64,000 nucleotides of DNA, taken from Acidobacteriota bacterium. Its GTDB lineage: Bacteria; Acidobacteriota; Terriglobia; Versatilivoradales; Versatilivoraceae. A program made the translations under genes and the position numbers. How positions within the stretch are numbered: the stretch's first letter is position 1; each line of letters opens with the position of its first letter. Below the pieces are notes generated by a model. That model worked only from the letters and a program-made list of their open reading frames with translations. It was not told where the DNA came from and did not search any database. Positions 50,912 to 64,000 of this stretch are shown here, in pieces. The DNA is taken from the NCBI GenBank assembly GCA_028875575.1, contig JAPPDF010000055.1, positions 1 through 64,000 of the forward strand, given 5' to 3'.

Positions 50912-51093
50912 TCTTTTTGTCTGGTGGTTTGGGAAGTTACTCCTTAAACTCTCGACACGGTCCGGGCCGGTTGTGCATCCGGCATCGCGAGCTTTTTGGA
51001 GCGGCAACCGGACGGCTGGGAAATTGTATCCGGAAGCAGGCTGCCGGTGGCGGGAGACGGTTCATTCAACACAATAAGGAGGTCCCATTGGTC

Positions 51094-52197
51094 ATGAGAC
51101 ACGAATCCAATGTAGCAAAAAACAGGCCCATGGAGCGCCGGGAATTTCTGCGGGCGGCAGGGAAAATCGCAGCCGTCACCGCCATGACCTCGGAGGCCTT
51201 TGGCCGAAATTTCGGTCCTGAGGCGGAGCCGGTACGTTATCCGGAGCCGGACGTGGTGGCTCTCGACAAGCGCTTCAGGTACAAGCTGGGCAATTCACCC
51301 ATTCTGCGCCTGCACCGCGGGACCCTGTGGGCCGAAGGGCCGGCCTGGAACGGCGTCGGCCGCTACCTGCTATGGAGCGACATTCCCAACAACGAGCAGC
51401 TTCGCTGGTTGGAGGAAGACGGCCACGTGGCCCGTCGGTTTCGCTTCCCCTCGGGGAACTCCAACGGGAACACCTTTGATTTTCAGGGCCGGCAGATCGC
51501 CTGCGAGCACGGCAACCGCAGGGTGGTGCGCTACGAGTTCAACGGAGGAATCACGGTACTGGCCGACTCCCATGGAGGCAAGTCGCTCAACGCTCCCAAC
51601 GATGCCGTGGTCCATCCCGAAGACGGGGCCGTCTGGTTTACCGATCCCGGATACGGCAGCCTCATGAACTACGAGGGGAACCGGGCCGACACGGGATCCC
51701 TACAGCCTTACCAGAAGGAGGCGATCTACCGGGTCGACCCGCAGCAGGGCACACTGGAAAAGGTGGCGGACGACATCTACAAGCCCAACGGGCTCTGCTT
51801 TTCTCCCGATTACAAGAAACTCTACGTGGCCGACACCGGGGCCTCGCACTATCCGGACGCACCCAAGAACATCAAGGTCTGGGACGTGGTGGATCAGAGA
51901 TATCTGCGAAACGGGCGAGAGTTCGCTTCCATGGAGCTTGAAGGCAAGACCGGTTTCGCCGACGGCATCCGGGCCGATACCGACGGCAACGTCTGGGCCA
52001 GCGCCGGTTGGGTGGGGGACGGTTACGACGGGGTGCACATCTTCGCCCCTGACGGCGACCGCATCGGCTTGATCCGGCTGCCGGAGATCTGTTCCAACGT
52101 CTGCTTCGGGGGAACCAAGCGCAACCGGCTGTTCATGACAGGGAGTCAGTCCCTCTACGCCGTCTACGTGGAGACCCAGGGAGCGCACCTGACCTGA
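51094..52197 (+). CDS. Exported SMP-30/gluconolactonase-like protein
   Basis: A 367-residue protein from the ATG at 51094 (GGAGG about 11 bp upstream). The signal has the twin-arginine pattern M-E-R-R-E-F-L-R-A-A-G-K-I-A-A-V, so Tat export is likely. A six-bladed propeller follows: L-W-A-E-G-P-A-W, L-N-A-P-N-D-A-V-V-H, W-F-T-D-P-G-Y-G and K-P-N-G-L-C-F-S-P-D are the metal-ligand loops (Glu, Asn, Asp) of the SMP-30/gluconolactonase/Drp35 family. Substrate is likely a lactone; not provable from sequence. Confidence 0.88.
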   Translation: MRHESNVAKNRPMERREFLRAAGKIAAVTAMTSEAFGRNFGPEAEPVRYPEPDVVALDKRFRYKLGNSPILRLHRGTLWAEGPAWNGVGRYLLWSDIPNNEQLRWLEEDGHVARRFRFPSGNSNGNTFDFQGRQIACEHGNRRVVRYEFNGGITVLADSHGGKSLNAPNDAVVHPEDGAVWFTDPGYGSLMNYEGNRADTGSLQPYQKEAIYRVDPQQGTLEKVADDIYKPNGLCFSPDYKKLYVADTGASHYPDAPKNIKVWDVVDQRYLRNGREFASMELEGKTGFADGIRADTDGNVWASAGWVGDGYDGVHIFAPDGDRIGLIRLPEICSNVCFGGTKRNRLFMTGSQSLYAVYVETQGAHLT

Positions 52198-57144: not shown

Positions 57145-58419
57145 ATGCCCAACGGGAACTGCTACACCGACGACTGGAAACGGACCACCCCCGACTATGC
57201 CGTCTATCTGCAGAAGGCTCCGGGGGAAAGGGACGAGTATTCCGACCACATTCACGTCTTTTACACGCCTGGGGGCGATCTCATGTGCATGTGGACCCAG
57301 GGCTCCCATGAGAGTTCCCCCGACCTCAGAGTGGTTTGCTCGCGCAGCCGGGATGGTGGAAAGACCTGGTCCCCGACTCTTGCCATTGACGAGTCCAAGT
57401 ACAAGAACATGGTTCCTTCGCTGGGATTTCCCCTGATCAGCCGCTCGGGAAGAATGTACTGCCTTTACAACCAGCACCTGGGATACGGCGACGGAGGTCT
57501 CTATTCCTCGCCCCTGCGGGTCAAGTACTCGGATGACGATGGCCACACCTGGGTCGCCAGCGGCGTGGACATCCCTTGGCGGCGGACCCGTTTCGACCAT
57601 CCCGATCCCAAAGTCCACCCCACGGGTATCGTCTGGCAGCAGCCCATTCGGGATGCCAAGGATCGCATGCTCGTGGGATTCACCCGGTGGAGCAGCCCCA
57701 TGGCCTATCCCCGGCCCATCGGGGGCAATCGCAACCACGGCGACAGCGGCATCGAGTTCATGCGCTTCGAGAATGTGGATGAGGGCCCCCATCCCAGGGA
57801 TCTGAAAATCACCTGGCTGCCGGACGAGGCCGGGACCGTTCGAGTTTCACCCAACATCGAACCCGAGCACTCCCGCGGCTACAGCCTGGCCCAGGAGCCG
57901 GGTCTGGTGCTTCTGCCGGACGGGCGATTGTTCACCACCATGAGGACAGTGACCGGCTATATCTGGTACACCGTTTCCGATGACCACGGCCACAGTTGGC
58001 GCCCCACCCAACCCATGCGCTTTCGAGACAACGGCGCCAAGGTCGAGCATCCGAAGTCGCCCGAGCCCCTCTACCGCCTGGCAGACGGCCGTTACCTTTT
58101 CTTCTTCCACAATCACTCCGGCTACCGGGACGGGGCCACCGGTCCCTGGGACATGGACGCTCGCAGGCCCGTCTACATTACGGTGGGAGAATTTCGCCCC
58201 CGGGCGGAACAGCCTCTGTGGTTCAGCGAGCCCAAGTTTCTCTTCGACACGCAGAAGGTGACCGCTGGAACGACCCGGCTCTGGTGGCTGGCCATGTACG
58301 CCAGCCTGACGGAGAGGGACGGCCGCCGAGTCTTCTGGTACGCCGACCGCAAACAGTTTGTCCTGGGAAAAAACATCACCGACGAGATGCTGGCCGACAT
58401 GAGAGCCCCGGAGGCCTGA
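57145..58419 (+). CDS. Sialidase-like six-bladed propeller protein
   Basis: A 424-residue protein with three Asp-boxes, S-R-D-G-G-K-T-W (68-75), S-D-D-D-G-H-T-W (129-136) and S-D-D-H-G-H-S-W (278-285), which define the BNR/sialidase superfamily. No signal peptide is seen at this start, so it may be cytoplasmic, or an earlier start was missed. The catalytic Arg triad and Tyr/Glu of true sialidases were not identified, so it may act on other sugar esters or bind glycans. The next gene starts 5 bp after its stop. Confidence 0.78.
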   Translation: MPNGNCYTDDWKRTTPDYAVYLQKAPGERDEYSDHIHVFYTPGGDLMCMWTQGSHESSPDLRVVCSRSRDGGKTWSPTLAIDESKYKNMVPSLGFPLISRSGRMYCLYNQHLGYGDGGLYSSPLRVKYSDDDGHTWVASGVDIPWRRTRFDHPDPKVHPTGIVWQQPIRDAKDRMLVGFTRWSSPMAYPRPIGGNRNHGDSGIEFMRFENVDEGPHPRDLKITWLPDEAGTVRVSPNIEPEHSRGYSLAQEPGLVLLPDGRLFTTMRTVTGYIWYTVSDDHGHSWRPTQPMRFRDNGAKVEHPKSPEPLYRLADGRYLFFFHNHSGYRDGATGPWDMDARRPVYITVGEFRPRAEQPLWFSEPKFLFDTQKVTAGTTRLWWLAMYASLTERDGRRVFWYADRKQFVLGKNITDEMLADMRAPEA

Positions 58420-58424
58420 GGTTC

Positions 58425-60293
58425 ATGAACATGAAGAAGATACGGATGAGATATCAGAAACCGTTCGGGTGGCTGGCAGTCCTCTTCCTTTCAGTGGCCA
58501 TCTTCTGGATGGGCTGTTCGGTGGCGCCTCCTCCCGGAGAGCAATCCGCTTCCGGTATTTCCGACGCGGATTCAGAGGCCAGCGCCATCTATCTGACCGA
58601 CCTGGAGAAGTGCCGGCCGGCTTCCGCCCTGGCCAGTGAATGGAAACATGGCACTTGGCGGTTGCTCTCCTACGCCACCGATTCCTTCAGTGGCAACCTG
58701 CTGGTGGCCGCCGAGGACAACCGGCCACCTGAAATCACCTATCCGCTGCAGCGGGAAGGGTGGCACCGGATCTACATCGGAATCTACCGCGAACCGTTCA
58801 CCGGCCCCAGACGGGTTCGGGTCCGCCTGAGCGACGACCAGGCCTTCGGCACCCTGACGGGGCTCGAGGGAGCCAAGGACCATCAGGAGCATTTCATCGA
58901 TGATATCTTCTGGAAGGAAGCCGACCTCACTGGCAGGGACATCGTCTTCAAACAGATTACCGAGCCCATGGCGGTGCACGCCTGGGTCGCCTACATCAAG
59001 CTGGTGCCCCTCACCCAGAAGCAGGTGCGCTCCATCCGGACTGACCGGCGTCGCAAGGACACCAAGAGACTGTTCATCCATAACGACGCCGGAGTGATCA
59101 ACCGCAGCGGAACCGAGCAGGAAATCCGGGATCAACTGGAACCGTTGCGGCATTCCGACGTGGCCCGGGTCTACTGGGAGTTCGGCACCGGCGACCGCGC
59201 CAAGCGTTTCTCCAAGATCGCCCGCGACCACTCGCTGGATTTGACCCAGGCGGCAGGGGGCCGTCCCTTCTTTACCAGCCCCCACGGCCGCTGGTGGGCC
59301 GAGAGCTGGAAGGCCTACCACCGGAACGGGGTGGACCCCTTTCTGGTGGCTGCCGAGTACGCCCGCCAGGTGGGAATAGAGTTCCATGCCTCCTACCGTC
59401 CCGGGGGCTTCATTTACCCGGACAACTATGGTCCGACCCTTCCGGGCGTCAGCTTTTATGAACAGCACCCGGAATTGGTCTGTGTGAATCGCGAGGGCAA
59501 GCCCATGCCCCGCGTCTCCTATGCCTTCCCCGAGACGCGGCGCTATGTGTTGTCGCTCTTTCGTGAAGTGGCCACGGAAAATCCAATCGACGGAGTGGCG
59601 GTTCTCTACAATCGCCGCCCACCGCTGGTGGCCTACGAGGCGCCGGTGGTTGACGGGTTTCAGAAGGAATACGGCCTGGACCCGCGCCAGCTTCCGGAGA
59701 ATGATCCTCGCCTCATGCGCTACCGCTCACGGTTCCTGACCCAGTTCATGAGAGAACTGCGGGCCGAGCTGGATCAGGTGGCTCTGGAACTGAAGCGGGA
59801 AAAGCCCTTTGAGATCACGACCGTGGTTTCCAATGGCGAAGAAAACCTGTTTTTCGGGATGGACCTGGACACCTGGGTGAAGGAGGGTCTGGTGGATGTG
59901 ATCGTCCCCTATTCCTCGGTCGAGCGGATAGGAGCCTATGGAAACAAGGTTGGCCCAAATACATGGGACGGAGAACCCAGCTGGGAGGACCCAGAGGATG
60001 TGGAGTGGTTTGTCTCTCTGGTCAAGGGCACCCGAACCCGGGTGGCCCTGAACATGATGCCGCGGTTCCTGACGAAGGAGGCTCAATACCGCAAGGCACA
60101 CCAGCTCTACGAGGCCGGCGTGGAGAACCTCTTCTTCTGGGACGGGACCCACAGAGTGCGCAATGTTCTGCGGCTGGGACACCGGGAAGAGGTGTCTGAC
60201 TGGATGGCTTCGGGCCAGCCTCCCTTCCGACCCACCAACGTAAGGGTTTGGGAGCTGGGGGGATGGGACCTGCACACGGAAACCCCCGGGTAG
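58425..60293 (+). CDS. Lipoprotein with GHL10-type glycosidase-like domain
   Basis: A 622-residue protein from the ATG at 58425 (ATG at 58431 is possible). Signal with lipobox W-M-G-C near residue 29, so it is probably lipid-anchored. Residues about 60-180 are a beta-rich region (F-S-G-N-L-L-V-A-A-E-D-N-R), then a TIM-barrel-like part with V-A-V-L-Y-N-R-R-P-P, D-P-R-Q-L-P-E-N-D, F-E-I-T-T-V-V-S-N-G-E-E-N and L-V-D-V-I-V-P-Y, typical of GHL10/DUF4015 proteins. Substrate unknown. Follows the sialidase-like gene in an operon. Confidence 0.75.
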   Translation: MNMKKIRMRYQKPFGWLAVLFLSVAIFWMGCSVAPPPGEQSASGISDADSEASAIYLTDLEKCRPASALASEWKHGTWRLLSYATDSFSGNLLVAAEDNRPPEITYPLQREGWHRIYIGIYREPFTGPRRVRVRLSDDQAFGTLTGLEGAKDHQEHFIDDIFWKEADLTGRDIVFKQITEPMAVHAWVAYIKLVPLTQKQVRSIRTDRRRKDTKRLFIHNDAGVINRSGTEQEIRDQLEPLRHSDVARVYWEFGTGDRAKRFSKIARDHSLDLTQAAGGRPFFTSPHGRWWAESWKAYHRNGVDPFLVAAEYARQVGIEFHASYRPGGFIYPDNYGPTLPGVSFYEQHPELVCVNREGKPMPRVSYAFPETRRYVLSLFREVATENPIDGVAVLYNRRPPLVAYEAPVVDGFQKEYGLDPRQLPENDPRLMRYRSRFLTQFMRELRAELDQVALELKREKPFEITTVVSNGEENLFFGMDLDTWVKEGLVDVIVPYSSVERIGAYGNKVGPNTWDGEPSWEDPEDVEWFVSLVKGTRTRVALNMMPRFLTKEAQYRKAHQLYEAGVENLFFWDGTHRVRNVLRLGHREEVSDWMASGQPPFRPTNVRVWELGGWDLHTETPG

Positions 60294-60660: not shown

Positions 60661-61995
60661 TCAGGGATTTGCCTGCCGGTCCAGCCGGATCAGCGTTTGC
60701 AGCAGCAGGTTGGCGCCGTTGGCGACGTCCCGCGGCCTGGTGTATTCCTGTGGCGAGTGGCTGATTCCACCCACGCTGGGAACGAAGATCAGGGCCGAGG
60801 GAGCAATGCTGGCCATATTCTGGGCGTCGTGGGCGGCCCCGCTGGGCAGCCGGGCGTAGCTCAGGTCCAGGGCCTGGGCCGTTTGCCGGATCACCTCCTG
60901 CAGGTTCGGGTCGGTCAGGGTCGGCTCCACCCCGATGTCGATTTCCGTGAACTCGATCTCGGTGCCTGTCTCCTGACCGATGAGTCGCGCCCGGCGCCGG
61001 ATTTCCTGAAAGAGTCGCTCCAGCTTGGGTTTGGCGAGATCGCGCAGCTCCAGGCTGAGCTCCACCCGTCCGGGAATGACGTTGGGCGCTCCCGGCTCGG
61101 CCCTGATGCGCCCCACCGTGGCCACCTGTCTGCCGGGCAGGCTCGTGGCGGCCCGGTTGACCGCGATCACCAGCCTGGCGGCCGCCAGCAGGGCGTCCCG
61201 GCGGGCGTTCATGGGAGTGGTGCCGGCGTGGTTGGCAAAACCCGTCACGGTCACGTCCCACCAGCGGATGCCTACGAATCCCTCCACAATGCCGATGTCT
61301 GTCCCCTCCGACTCCAGGCTGCCTCCCTGCTCGATGTGCAATTCCAGGTAGGCCTTCACCTCTCCAGGGGGGCGGATGGCCCCGGAAATTCGGTCGGCAT
61401 CGCCACCGAGGGCTGCAATCCCCTGCCGGACGGACATGCCGCTGCGGCTGGATTCCTCCAGGGCCTGGGCGTTGAGCCGGCCCGACAGGGCGCGGCTGCC
61501 GGTCAAGCCTCCCTCTTCGTTGGCGAAGACGATGACTTCCAGCGGGTGTCGGGTCCGAATTCCATGCTCCTCCAGCACCTGGACGCACTCGATGGCCGCC
61601 ATCACTCCCAGCACGCCGTCGAAGGCCCCGGACAGAGGCACGGTGTCGATGTGCGACCCCAGCACGATAGGGGCGAGTTCGGGAGAACCGCCCGGCAGGC
61701 GTCCCGACAGGTTGCCGGCCTCGTCGATGCCGACTTCCAGGCCAGCTTCCTGCATGAGCCGGATCACGTAGGCCCGGCCGCTGAGATCGGCCTCGGTGAA
61801 CGCCAGGCGGGTTACTCCCTGAGGACTCCCTCCGATGCGGGCCATTCGCTCGATGCGCTTCTGGAGCCGTTCAGGGTTGACCCGTAGTTTTGCCGGCTCT
61901 TCGGATTCAGCCCCGTACAGGGGCCATCCGAGCAGCAGCAAGCCGAGGGTCAGGCGGAAGAGGTTGGGCAATCTGTTGGCTTCGGACGGCCGCAT
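60661..61995 (-). CDS. Exported M20-family amidohydrolase (carbamoylase type)
   Basis: A 444-residue protein with a signal peptide (L-F-R-L-T-L-G-L-L-L-L-G-W-P). It matches N-carbamoyl-amino-acid / allantoate hydrolase enzymes of peptidase family M20: zinc ligands in G-S-H-I-D-T-V, G-A-F-D-G-V-L, A-N-E-E-G-G, E-L-H-I-E-Q-G and G-I-S-H-S-P-Q-E, with F-A-N-H-A-G-T-T-P-M near the dimer domain. It hydrolyses ureido or amide bonds of amino-acid derivatives; the exported location is atypical of the usual cytoplasmic members. Confidence 0.9.
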   Translation of the reverse strand: MRPSEANRLPNLFRLTLGLLLLGWPLYGAESEEPAKLRVNPERLQKRIERMARIGGSPQGVTRLAFTEADLSGRAYVIRLMQEAGLEVGIDEAGNLSGRLPGGSPELAPIVLGSHIDTVPLSGAFDGVLGVMAAIECVQVLEEHGIRTRHPLEVIVFANEEGGLTGSRALSGRLNAQALEESSRSGMSVRQGIAALGGDADRISGAIRPPGEVKAYLELHIEQGGSLESEGTDIGIVEGFVGIRWWDVTVTGFANHAGTTPMNARRDALLAAARLVIAVNRAATSLPGRQVATVGRIRAEPGAPNVIPGRVELSLELRDLAKPKLERLFQEIRRRARLIGQETGTEIEFTEIDIGVEPTLTDPNLQEVIRQTAQALDLSYARLPSGAAHDAQNMASIAPSALIFVPSVGGISHSPQEYTRPRDVANGANLLLQTLIRLDRQANP

Positions 61996-62936: not shown

Positions 62937-63150
62937 TCGCAACGGCTCCGGTAGGTGAACTCGTAGGGGCCGAGTCCCCCGGACACACATCATCGGGCAA
63001 CGACCTGCCATTCCGGGTTCCGAGACCCTGCGCATTCCATCCCCTGAATCACGAAAATCGTACCCGCGGACGTCATTGTGCGCCTTGCCCCTGCGGTGGT
63101 AACATGCTGTCAACACCAGAGTTGATGTGAAGGTGGGAGGAGGCCCGACG

Positions 63151-64000
63151 ATGCCCGGCTCCAGCCGCAGAGCGCTTCTCAGGAAGGTGGGCCTGATTGC
63201 CGGAGCGGCAGCGTTGAATACTCCGGCCGGCGGCCTGGCCCGGGCGCGTTCCCCCAACCGCCTAGACATGGACCGCCTTCGCGAGCGCATCCAGGGCGTC
63301 CATTGCTTCATGGTGACTCCCTTTCATCCCGACGGCAGCCTCAACGCCGAGGGGCTTCGCCGCAATATCGCCCACCACGCCGATGCCGGGATCCAGGACA
63401 CGACCATCGTGGTCGGGGGCGGCATGGGGGAGATCTTCTCCCTGGACCTGAAGGAGCACCGGGCCATGGCGGAGGCTGCGGCCAGGGGCGCCGGGGGCAA
63501 GCTGCCGGTGGTGGTGGGGGCTTGCGGCGGCTACCGCATGGCCAGGATCATGGCCCGCAACGCCCAGGAAGCCGGAGCCGACGCCATCCTGCTGTTCGCA
63601 CCTCCCTACTGGAACTGGATTCCCGGATACGACCAGGGCACCATTCGGTATTTCACCGAGGTGGCGCAATCGATCGACATCGGGGTGGTGCTGGCCACGG
63701 TTTCGGGGCACAATTTCCCCACTGGCAAGGAGAAGTATTGGCCCAGGGTCCTGAAACGCCTGTCCGAGCTTCCCAATGTCCTCGGGTTCGAGGATTCCAG
63801 CAGCGACATCGCCATGGGACAGGAACTGGGAGCCCTGGTCTCCGACCGGCTGGTCTGGATCGCCCGCGGTGAAGGGCACGCCGTCAAGGCCTTGCCGGCC
63901 GGAGCCCGAGGCAACACCTCGGCCGTGGCCACCTTCGTCCCTCAGGCCTGCAGAGAGTTTTGCAAGCAGGGGAAACTGGGAGAGGTCGAGCGCATGCAGG
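63151..64000 (+). CDS. Exported DapA-family protein lacking the Schiff-base lysine (partial, runs off the right edge)
   Basis: 283 residues before the edge. A basic S-R-R-A-L-L-R-K start and hydrophobic G-L-I-A-G-A-A-A-L suggest a Tat/Sec signal. The barrel follows the DHDPS/NAL family: H-C-F-M-V-T-P-F, E-A-G-A-D-A-I-L-L-F-A-P-P-Y, L-P-N-V-L-G-F. Three active-site motifs are altered: G-T-T-G-E is G-G-M-G-E (90-94), the Y-N-x-P loop is L-A-T-V-S-G-H (181-187), and the catalytic Lys of G-x-K-D is Glu214. So it is unlikely to make Schiff bases. No stop in the window. Confidence 0.85.
   Translation, partial: MPGSSRRALLRKVGLIAGAAALNTPAGGLARARSPNRLDMDRLRERIQGVHCFMVTPFHPDGSLNAEGLRRNIAHHADAGIQDTTIVVGGGMGEIFSLDLKEHRAMAEAAARGAGGKLPVVVGACGGYRMARIMARNAQEAGADAILLFAPPYWNWIPGYDQGTIRYFTEVAQSIDIGVVLATVSGHNFPTGKEKYWPRVLKRLSELPNVLGFEDSSSDIAMGQELGALVSDRLVWIARGEGHAVKALPAGARGNTSAVATFVPQACREFCKQGKLGEVERMQ

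Follow-up and report, generated by a model that had tools for sequence, protein, structure and literature searches.

A putatively exported KdgD-related protein of an Acidobacteriota bacterium with glutamate in place of the Schiff-base lysine

A Schiff-base lysine is the defining feature of the DHDPS/NAL superfamily. A 64,000-nucleotide stretch of DNA from an Acidobacteriota bacterium (the window) closes with a gene for a protein of this superfamily, apparently destined for export, that encodes glutamate where the lysine should be. This raises the question of what the protein does: it could be a decaying or misassembled copy, a class I enzyme that still works by another route, a non-catalytic binding or accessory protein, or an old substrate pocket put to a new, non-covalent use.

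Gene, signal sequence and family placement

The gene runs on the forward strand (63151..64000) and is truncated by the window edge alone, since its frame is open throughout and continues to a normal stop at 64194 in contig C55. The full product has 347 residues; the first 283 codons fall inside the window, and the remaining 64 residues lie beyond it together with the stop codon. The start is the ATG at 63151, seven bases after a Shine-Dalgarno-like GGAGGAGG (GGAGG; 63136..63143, forward strand), and an alternative in-frame GTG lies at 63127. Residues are numbered here from the GTG (P0001), giving Glu222 and His195; counted from the ATG, the same residues are Glu214 and His187.

The N-terminus, SSRRALLRKVGLIAGAAAL, is Tat-like, with a putative signal peptide, MPGSSRRALLRKVGLIAGAAALNTPAGGLARAR, at 63151..63249 (forward strand), assigned from the sequence and the orthologue motif. 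By inspection, SSRRALLRK fits the twin-arginine pattern S/T-R-R-x-hydrophobic-L-K. An orthologue from a second genus (L061) carries a motif of the same type, SSRRSLLKK, followed by a lipobox-like LQGC, and no obvious signal was seen at the N-terminus of the third-genus copy (G007). The protein, for which a signal sequence had been proposed in the original prediction, thus looks exported, probably after folding. Near relatives of the assembly are metagenome-assembled genomes (MAGs) of Acidobacteriota, class Terriglobia, including Candidatus Versatilivorator vitaminiformans, and the group to which the source bacterium belongs is largely sponge-associated.

Pfam assigns the protein to DHDPS (PF00701), with E values of 5.7e-34 for the in-window part and 2.4e-40 for the whole gene, and a score of 138.7 bits, above the curated cut-off of 22.1. 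Among PDB entries, 4ur7, a keto-deoxy-galactarate/glucarate dehydratase, matches best (E 1.4e-29); among NCBIfam models it is the KdgD subfamily NF002958 (174.6 bits, below its cut-off of 278). A second KdgD model, TIGR03249, gives 150.4 bits (cut-off 373.95), while the DapA model TIGR00674 gives 92.5, far below its cut-off of 206. The DapA-type assignment originally proposed holds at the level of the Pfam domain, but these matches make 5-keto-4-deoxyglucarate dehydratase (KdgD) the closest relative of known function, ahead of DapA. With DapA (4-hydroxy-tetrahydrodipicolinate synthase) the protein shares the Pfam family and probably the fold, but it has no equivalents of Lys161 or Tyr133 and no GTTGE. 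With KdgD (EC 4.2.1.41) it shares the GGxGE loop and a C-terminal R-GY-K-G-G-R pattern; it differs in its sub-threshold NF002958 score, its Glu at the Lys position, a longer His-bearing loop in place of the Tyr, and the Tat-type signal. Foldseek returned DHDPS/KdgD structures as best matches, although the query AlphaFold model was poor (pLDDT 54), as was a second one (pLDDT 48), both of these five-sequence predictions being too weak for pocket geometry. Viral contigs scanned for sequences to deepen the structure-prediction alignment yielded none.

Altered motifs and their conservation

In KdgD, the lysine forms a Schiff base with the substrate, the tyrosine takes the proton from C3, and the GGTGE loop holds the C1 carboxylate through its backbone amides (PMC13398020). 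In our protein, the strand 6 motif reads GFEDSS (63784..63801, forward strand), with Glu222 (GAG, 63790-63792) in place of the Schiff-base lysine. After strand 5, alignment shows ATVSGHNFPT (63694..63723, forward strand) instead of the Tyr-Pro-Arg motif: the Tyr of Y-P/N-R is gone, and the substituting loop is 5–7 residues longer and contains His195 (63709..63711, forward strand), which is invariant in 15/15 aligned Glu/Gln-type proteins and absent from all Lys, Phe or Leu types. The third motif, GGGMGE (63415..63432, forward strand), is the KdgD-type GGTGE carboxylate-binding loop with T changed to M, and its Glu is invariant across the whole aligned set. All three catalytic motifs had been predicted to be altered; the Lys-to-Glu exchange and the lost Tyr loop stand, but the supposed change of G-T-T-G-E does not, so that two motifs rather than three are lost, because GGGMGE keeps the final G-E. 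The alignment also shows that the KdgD-wide residues E102, R305, G310, K317 and R331 are kept.

These substitutions are shared by the orthologues, whose sequences come from draft MAGs. Six further genomes of the genus carry the gene at 92–94% identity (one copy is a fragment ending before the Lys position), the second-genus orthologue is about 65% identical, and the Glu-type relative in a third genus (G007) 56–58%. Whether the Glu is conserved among homologues had been put forward as a check, and both Glu222 and His195 are present in 8/8 Glu-type orthologues and near-orthologues in which the region is intact. The mature region evolves under purifying selection, with dN/dS of about 0.08–0.16, against 0.07–0.23 in the Lys-bearing paralogues.

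Between genera, the pocket columns (barrel-strand ends, hand-picked and placed by alignment) are 90% identical, compared to 64% elsewhere (p 2e-5). A pocket excess of similar kind is found in ordinary KdgD (94 vs 72 and 89 vs 74) and in the Lys-type paralogue K1 (90 vs 74). There was no such excess when the Phe-type paralogue was compared with the same genus (78 vs 73, p 0.52), nor between the Glu-type protein and its third-genus relative G007 (63 vs 56); for the Phe-type against a more distant Leu-type protein, the excess is present.

A decaying pseudogene, or an error of sequencing or assembly, would need only one base change from Lys to Glu, and the original prediction took a majority of Lys-bearing homologues as the mark of a pseudogene. 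Distant homologues do mostly have the Lys, namely 14 of the 17 PF00701 proteins of this 4.49 Mb genome (G000) and all KdgD outgroups; however, several independently assembled species share the Glu, the frame is uninterrupted, and purifying selection, the conserved pocket and conserved synteny together show that the gene is not a pseudogene. We therefore rule out decay or error, to which we assign a practically negligible probability.

A still-active class I enzyme, working through another lysine or through what is left of the same dehydratase reaction without any lysine, would be compatible with the KdgD-wide residues that remain besides Lys and Tyr. Against this, K317 is the sole Lys invariant in 8/8 Glu-type proteins, and ordinary KdgD conserves it just as strictly beside the true Lys; the catalytic Tyr has gone too. 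Lys conservation in the Glu-type group thus rules out a migrated Schiff-base lysine, and we consider continued class I activity very improbable. With the Lys absent and no replacement Lys in the group, the protein should be unable to form the usual Schiff base, in agreement with the original prediction.

Lysine loss within the putatively exported paralogue clade

The three Lys-less PF00701 proteins of the genome (Glu, Gln and Phe types) all belong to a single KdgD-derived clade of five with Tat-like signals, of which the other two, K1 and K2, keep both Lys and Tyr. In a tree computed without the trait columns, the exported clade splits from KdgD at 100/100, the K1, K2, Gln and Phe/Leu groups are each supported, and Glu and Gln form one side of a weakly supported branch (77/86). 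An AU test run without those columns speaks against a single Lys loss for all Lys-less paralogues (p 0.024, on the assumption that the Lys-less group was named beforehand). Profile searches, which covered Acidobacteriota, sampled 399 genomes of the class and found only two clade members outside the family (>480 bits), both with Lys, YPR and a Tat-like N-terminus, and the Lys is present in every KdgD outgroup. Because these two members keep both residues, Lys and Tyr represent the ancestral state, and the family has lost them on at least two occasions; on this tree the losses are independent, one in Glu/Gln (with the His) and one in Phe/Leu.

The Lys-type paralogues K1 (C13) and K2 (C9b) share with the Glu-type protein 50–53% identity, a Tat-type signal and the family-specific H59, W205, M290 and G327, but differ from it in keeping Lys and Tyr-Pro-Arg and in their operons. 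K1 (G000:C13:52699-53694 and the genes downstream of it; L009:2590-5704) shares a conserved cluster with the genes of two exported proteins, an amidohydrolase_2 and a member of the creatininase family, possibly a periplasmic pathway. K2 and the Gln-type gene (G000:C9:52648-54608; L008:4643-6666) overlap by 4 bases, with RraA-like and amidase genes next in line, and keep their tandem order in the family, which suggests a catalytic and a non-catalytic subunit. In the Phe-type paralogue (GFFPSLG; G000:C3:33675-34682; L083:5643-6728), Phe replaces the Lys in an independent loss; its gene stands between a PSD1-DUF1501 pair, which it follows directly, and an Ldh2-type dehydrogenase gene (named by eye), an arrangement conserved in the family.

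Gene neighbourhood and possible function

Around the Glu-type gene the order is TPR, LLM, BNR, GHL10, M20 peptidase, the DapA-like gene itself, a 657-residue exported protein, PSD1 and DUF1501; it is conserved throughout the genus and largely so in the second genus. The original prediction pointed to neighbours of sugar-acid type, and such Pfam-assigned genes do exist: an SMP-30-like gene (51073-52197) and the syntenically conserved BNR (sialidase-like; 57145..58419, forward strand) and GHL10-like (58428..60293, forward strand) genes. They lie 3–12 kb upstream, however, and an operon with them is unsupported because an M20-family peptidase gene (60661..61995, reverse strand), a syntenic neighbour that is probably transcribed separately, intervenes. 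Between 62337 and 62936, the window also encodes a coiled-coil protein of SELKQDIAELRT near-repeats, whose length varies among orthologues.

The neighbours that matter lie instead downstream, past the end of the window: the exported protein, PSD1 and DUF1501. The 657-residue protein has no Pfam match at 0.001 and is PPC-like by eye only. The genome holds a large set of the other two, 52 DUF1501 and 50 PSD1 genes, so that the adjacency of two of the five paralogues to PSD1-DUF1501 is only weakly improbable (rough binomial about 0.006–0.02) and suggestive at most.

These neighbours bear on the idea that the protein is a pseudoenzyme, that is, an exported non-catalytic binding or accessory protein such as a binding or assembly partner of PSD1-DUF1501 or a subunit of a Lys-type paralogue. 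The order of DapA-like gene, exported protein, PSD1 and DUF1501 in two genera, the Phe-type Lys-less paralogue beside another such pair, and the overlapping Lys-type/Gln-type genes with their hint of a partner subunit all fit this idea, as does the joint loss of Lys and Tyr, a classic pattern. As with pseudoenzymes in general (reviewed in PMC10211241), a conserved orthologue group has lost the family's catalytic residues, and the gene is under selection without them. Yet the adjacency is weak, the PSD1/DUF1501 pairs at the Glu-type and Phe-type loci fall in different score classes, and two features differ from pseudoenzymes in general: the pocket is conserved to the same degree as in relatives that carry the Lys, and the Tyr, rather than simply disappearing, has given way to a longer loop in which a His is conserved. 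We regard a pseudoenzyme as a credible possibility, short of an even chance.

With roughly even confidence, we favour a repurposed, non-Schiff-base sugar-acid pocket in a protein that belongs to the KdgD branch and leaves the cytoplasm by the Tat route. It would have kept the barrel, the GGxGE loop that binds the carboxylate and the C-terminal residues shared across KdgD, with the Schiff-base machinery replaced, Lys by Glu222 and Tyr by the loop with His195, so that class I aldolase or dehydratase activity by the usual route would be impossible. Outside the cytoplasm, the old KdgD substrate pocket would most likely bind a sugar acid, or an oxo- or hydroxy-acid related to one, non-covalently, and His195 and Glu222 would probably perform acid-base chemistry on it. 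That the two residues face one pocket is suggested by the alignment, both AlphaFold models being poor; export, ligand class and catalysis alike we infer. In the sister Gln-type paralogue an amide occupies the position at which catalysis would call for a Glu, and this points to binding rather than catalysis, at least in the Gln branch.

Rather unlikely, in our judgement, is a more specific form of catalysis in which His195 and Glu222, perhaps joined in a metal site by His59, Glu249 and His251, make the protein an enzyme without a Schiff base. The latter three residues are invariant in the Glu and Gln types, with H59 and H251 also present in the Lys-type paralogues. If true, such a His/Glu enzyme would represent a switch to another mechanism within a superfamily whose hallmark is the Schiff-base lysine. 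In the open-access literature we found no papers on Lys-less DHDPS, exported DHDPS, DUF1501 function or Ca. Versatilivorator, which is weak evidence of novelty.

An apparently exported sublineage of a lysine-defined superfamily has thus lost this lysine at least twice, and the Glu/Gln loss comes with a replacement loop, a highly conserved pocket and Lys-bearing sister paralogues in the same genome. The paralogue set offers a natural, testable series for the conversion of a covalent-catalysis fold to other uses, and the Glu-type gene provides a lead on the role of the PSD1-DUF1501 modules, in which these bacteria are rich.
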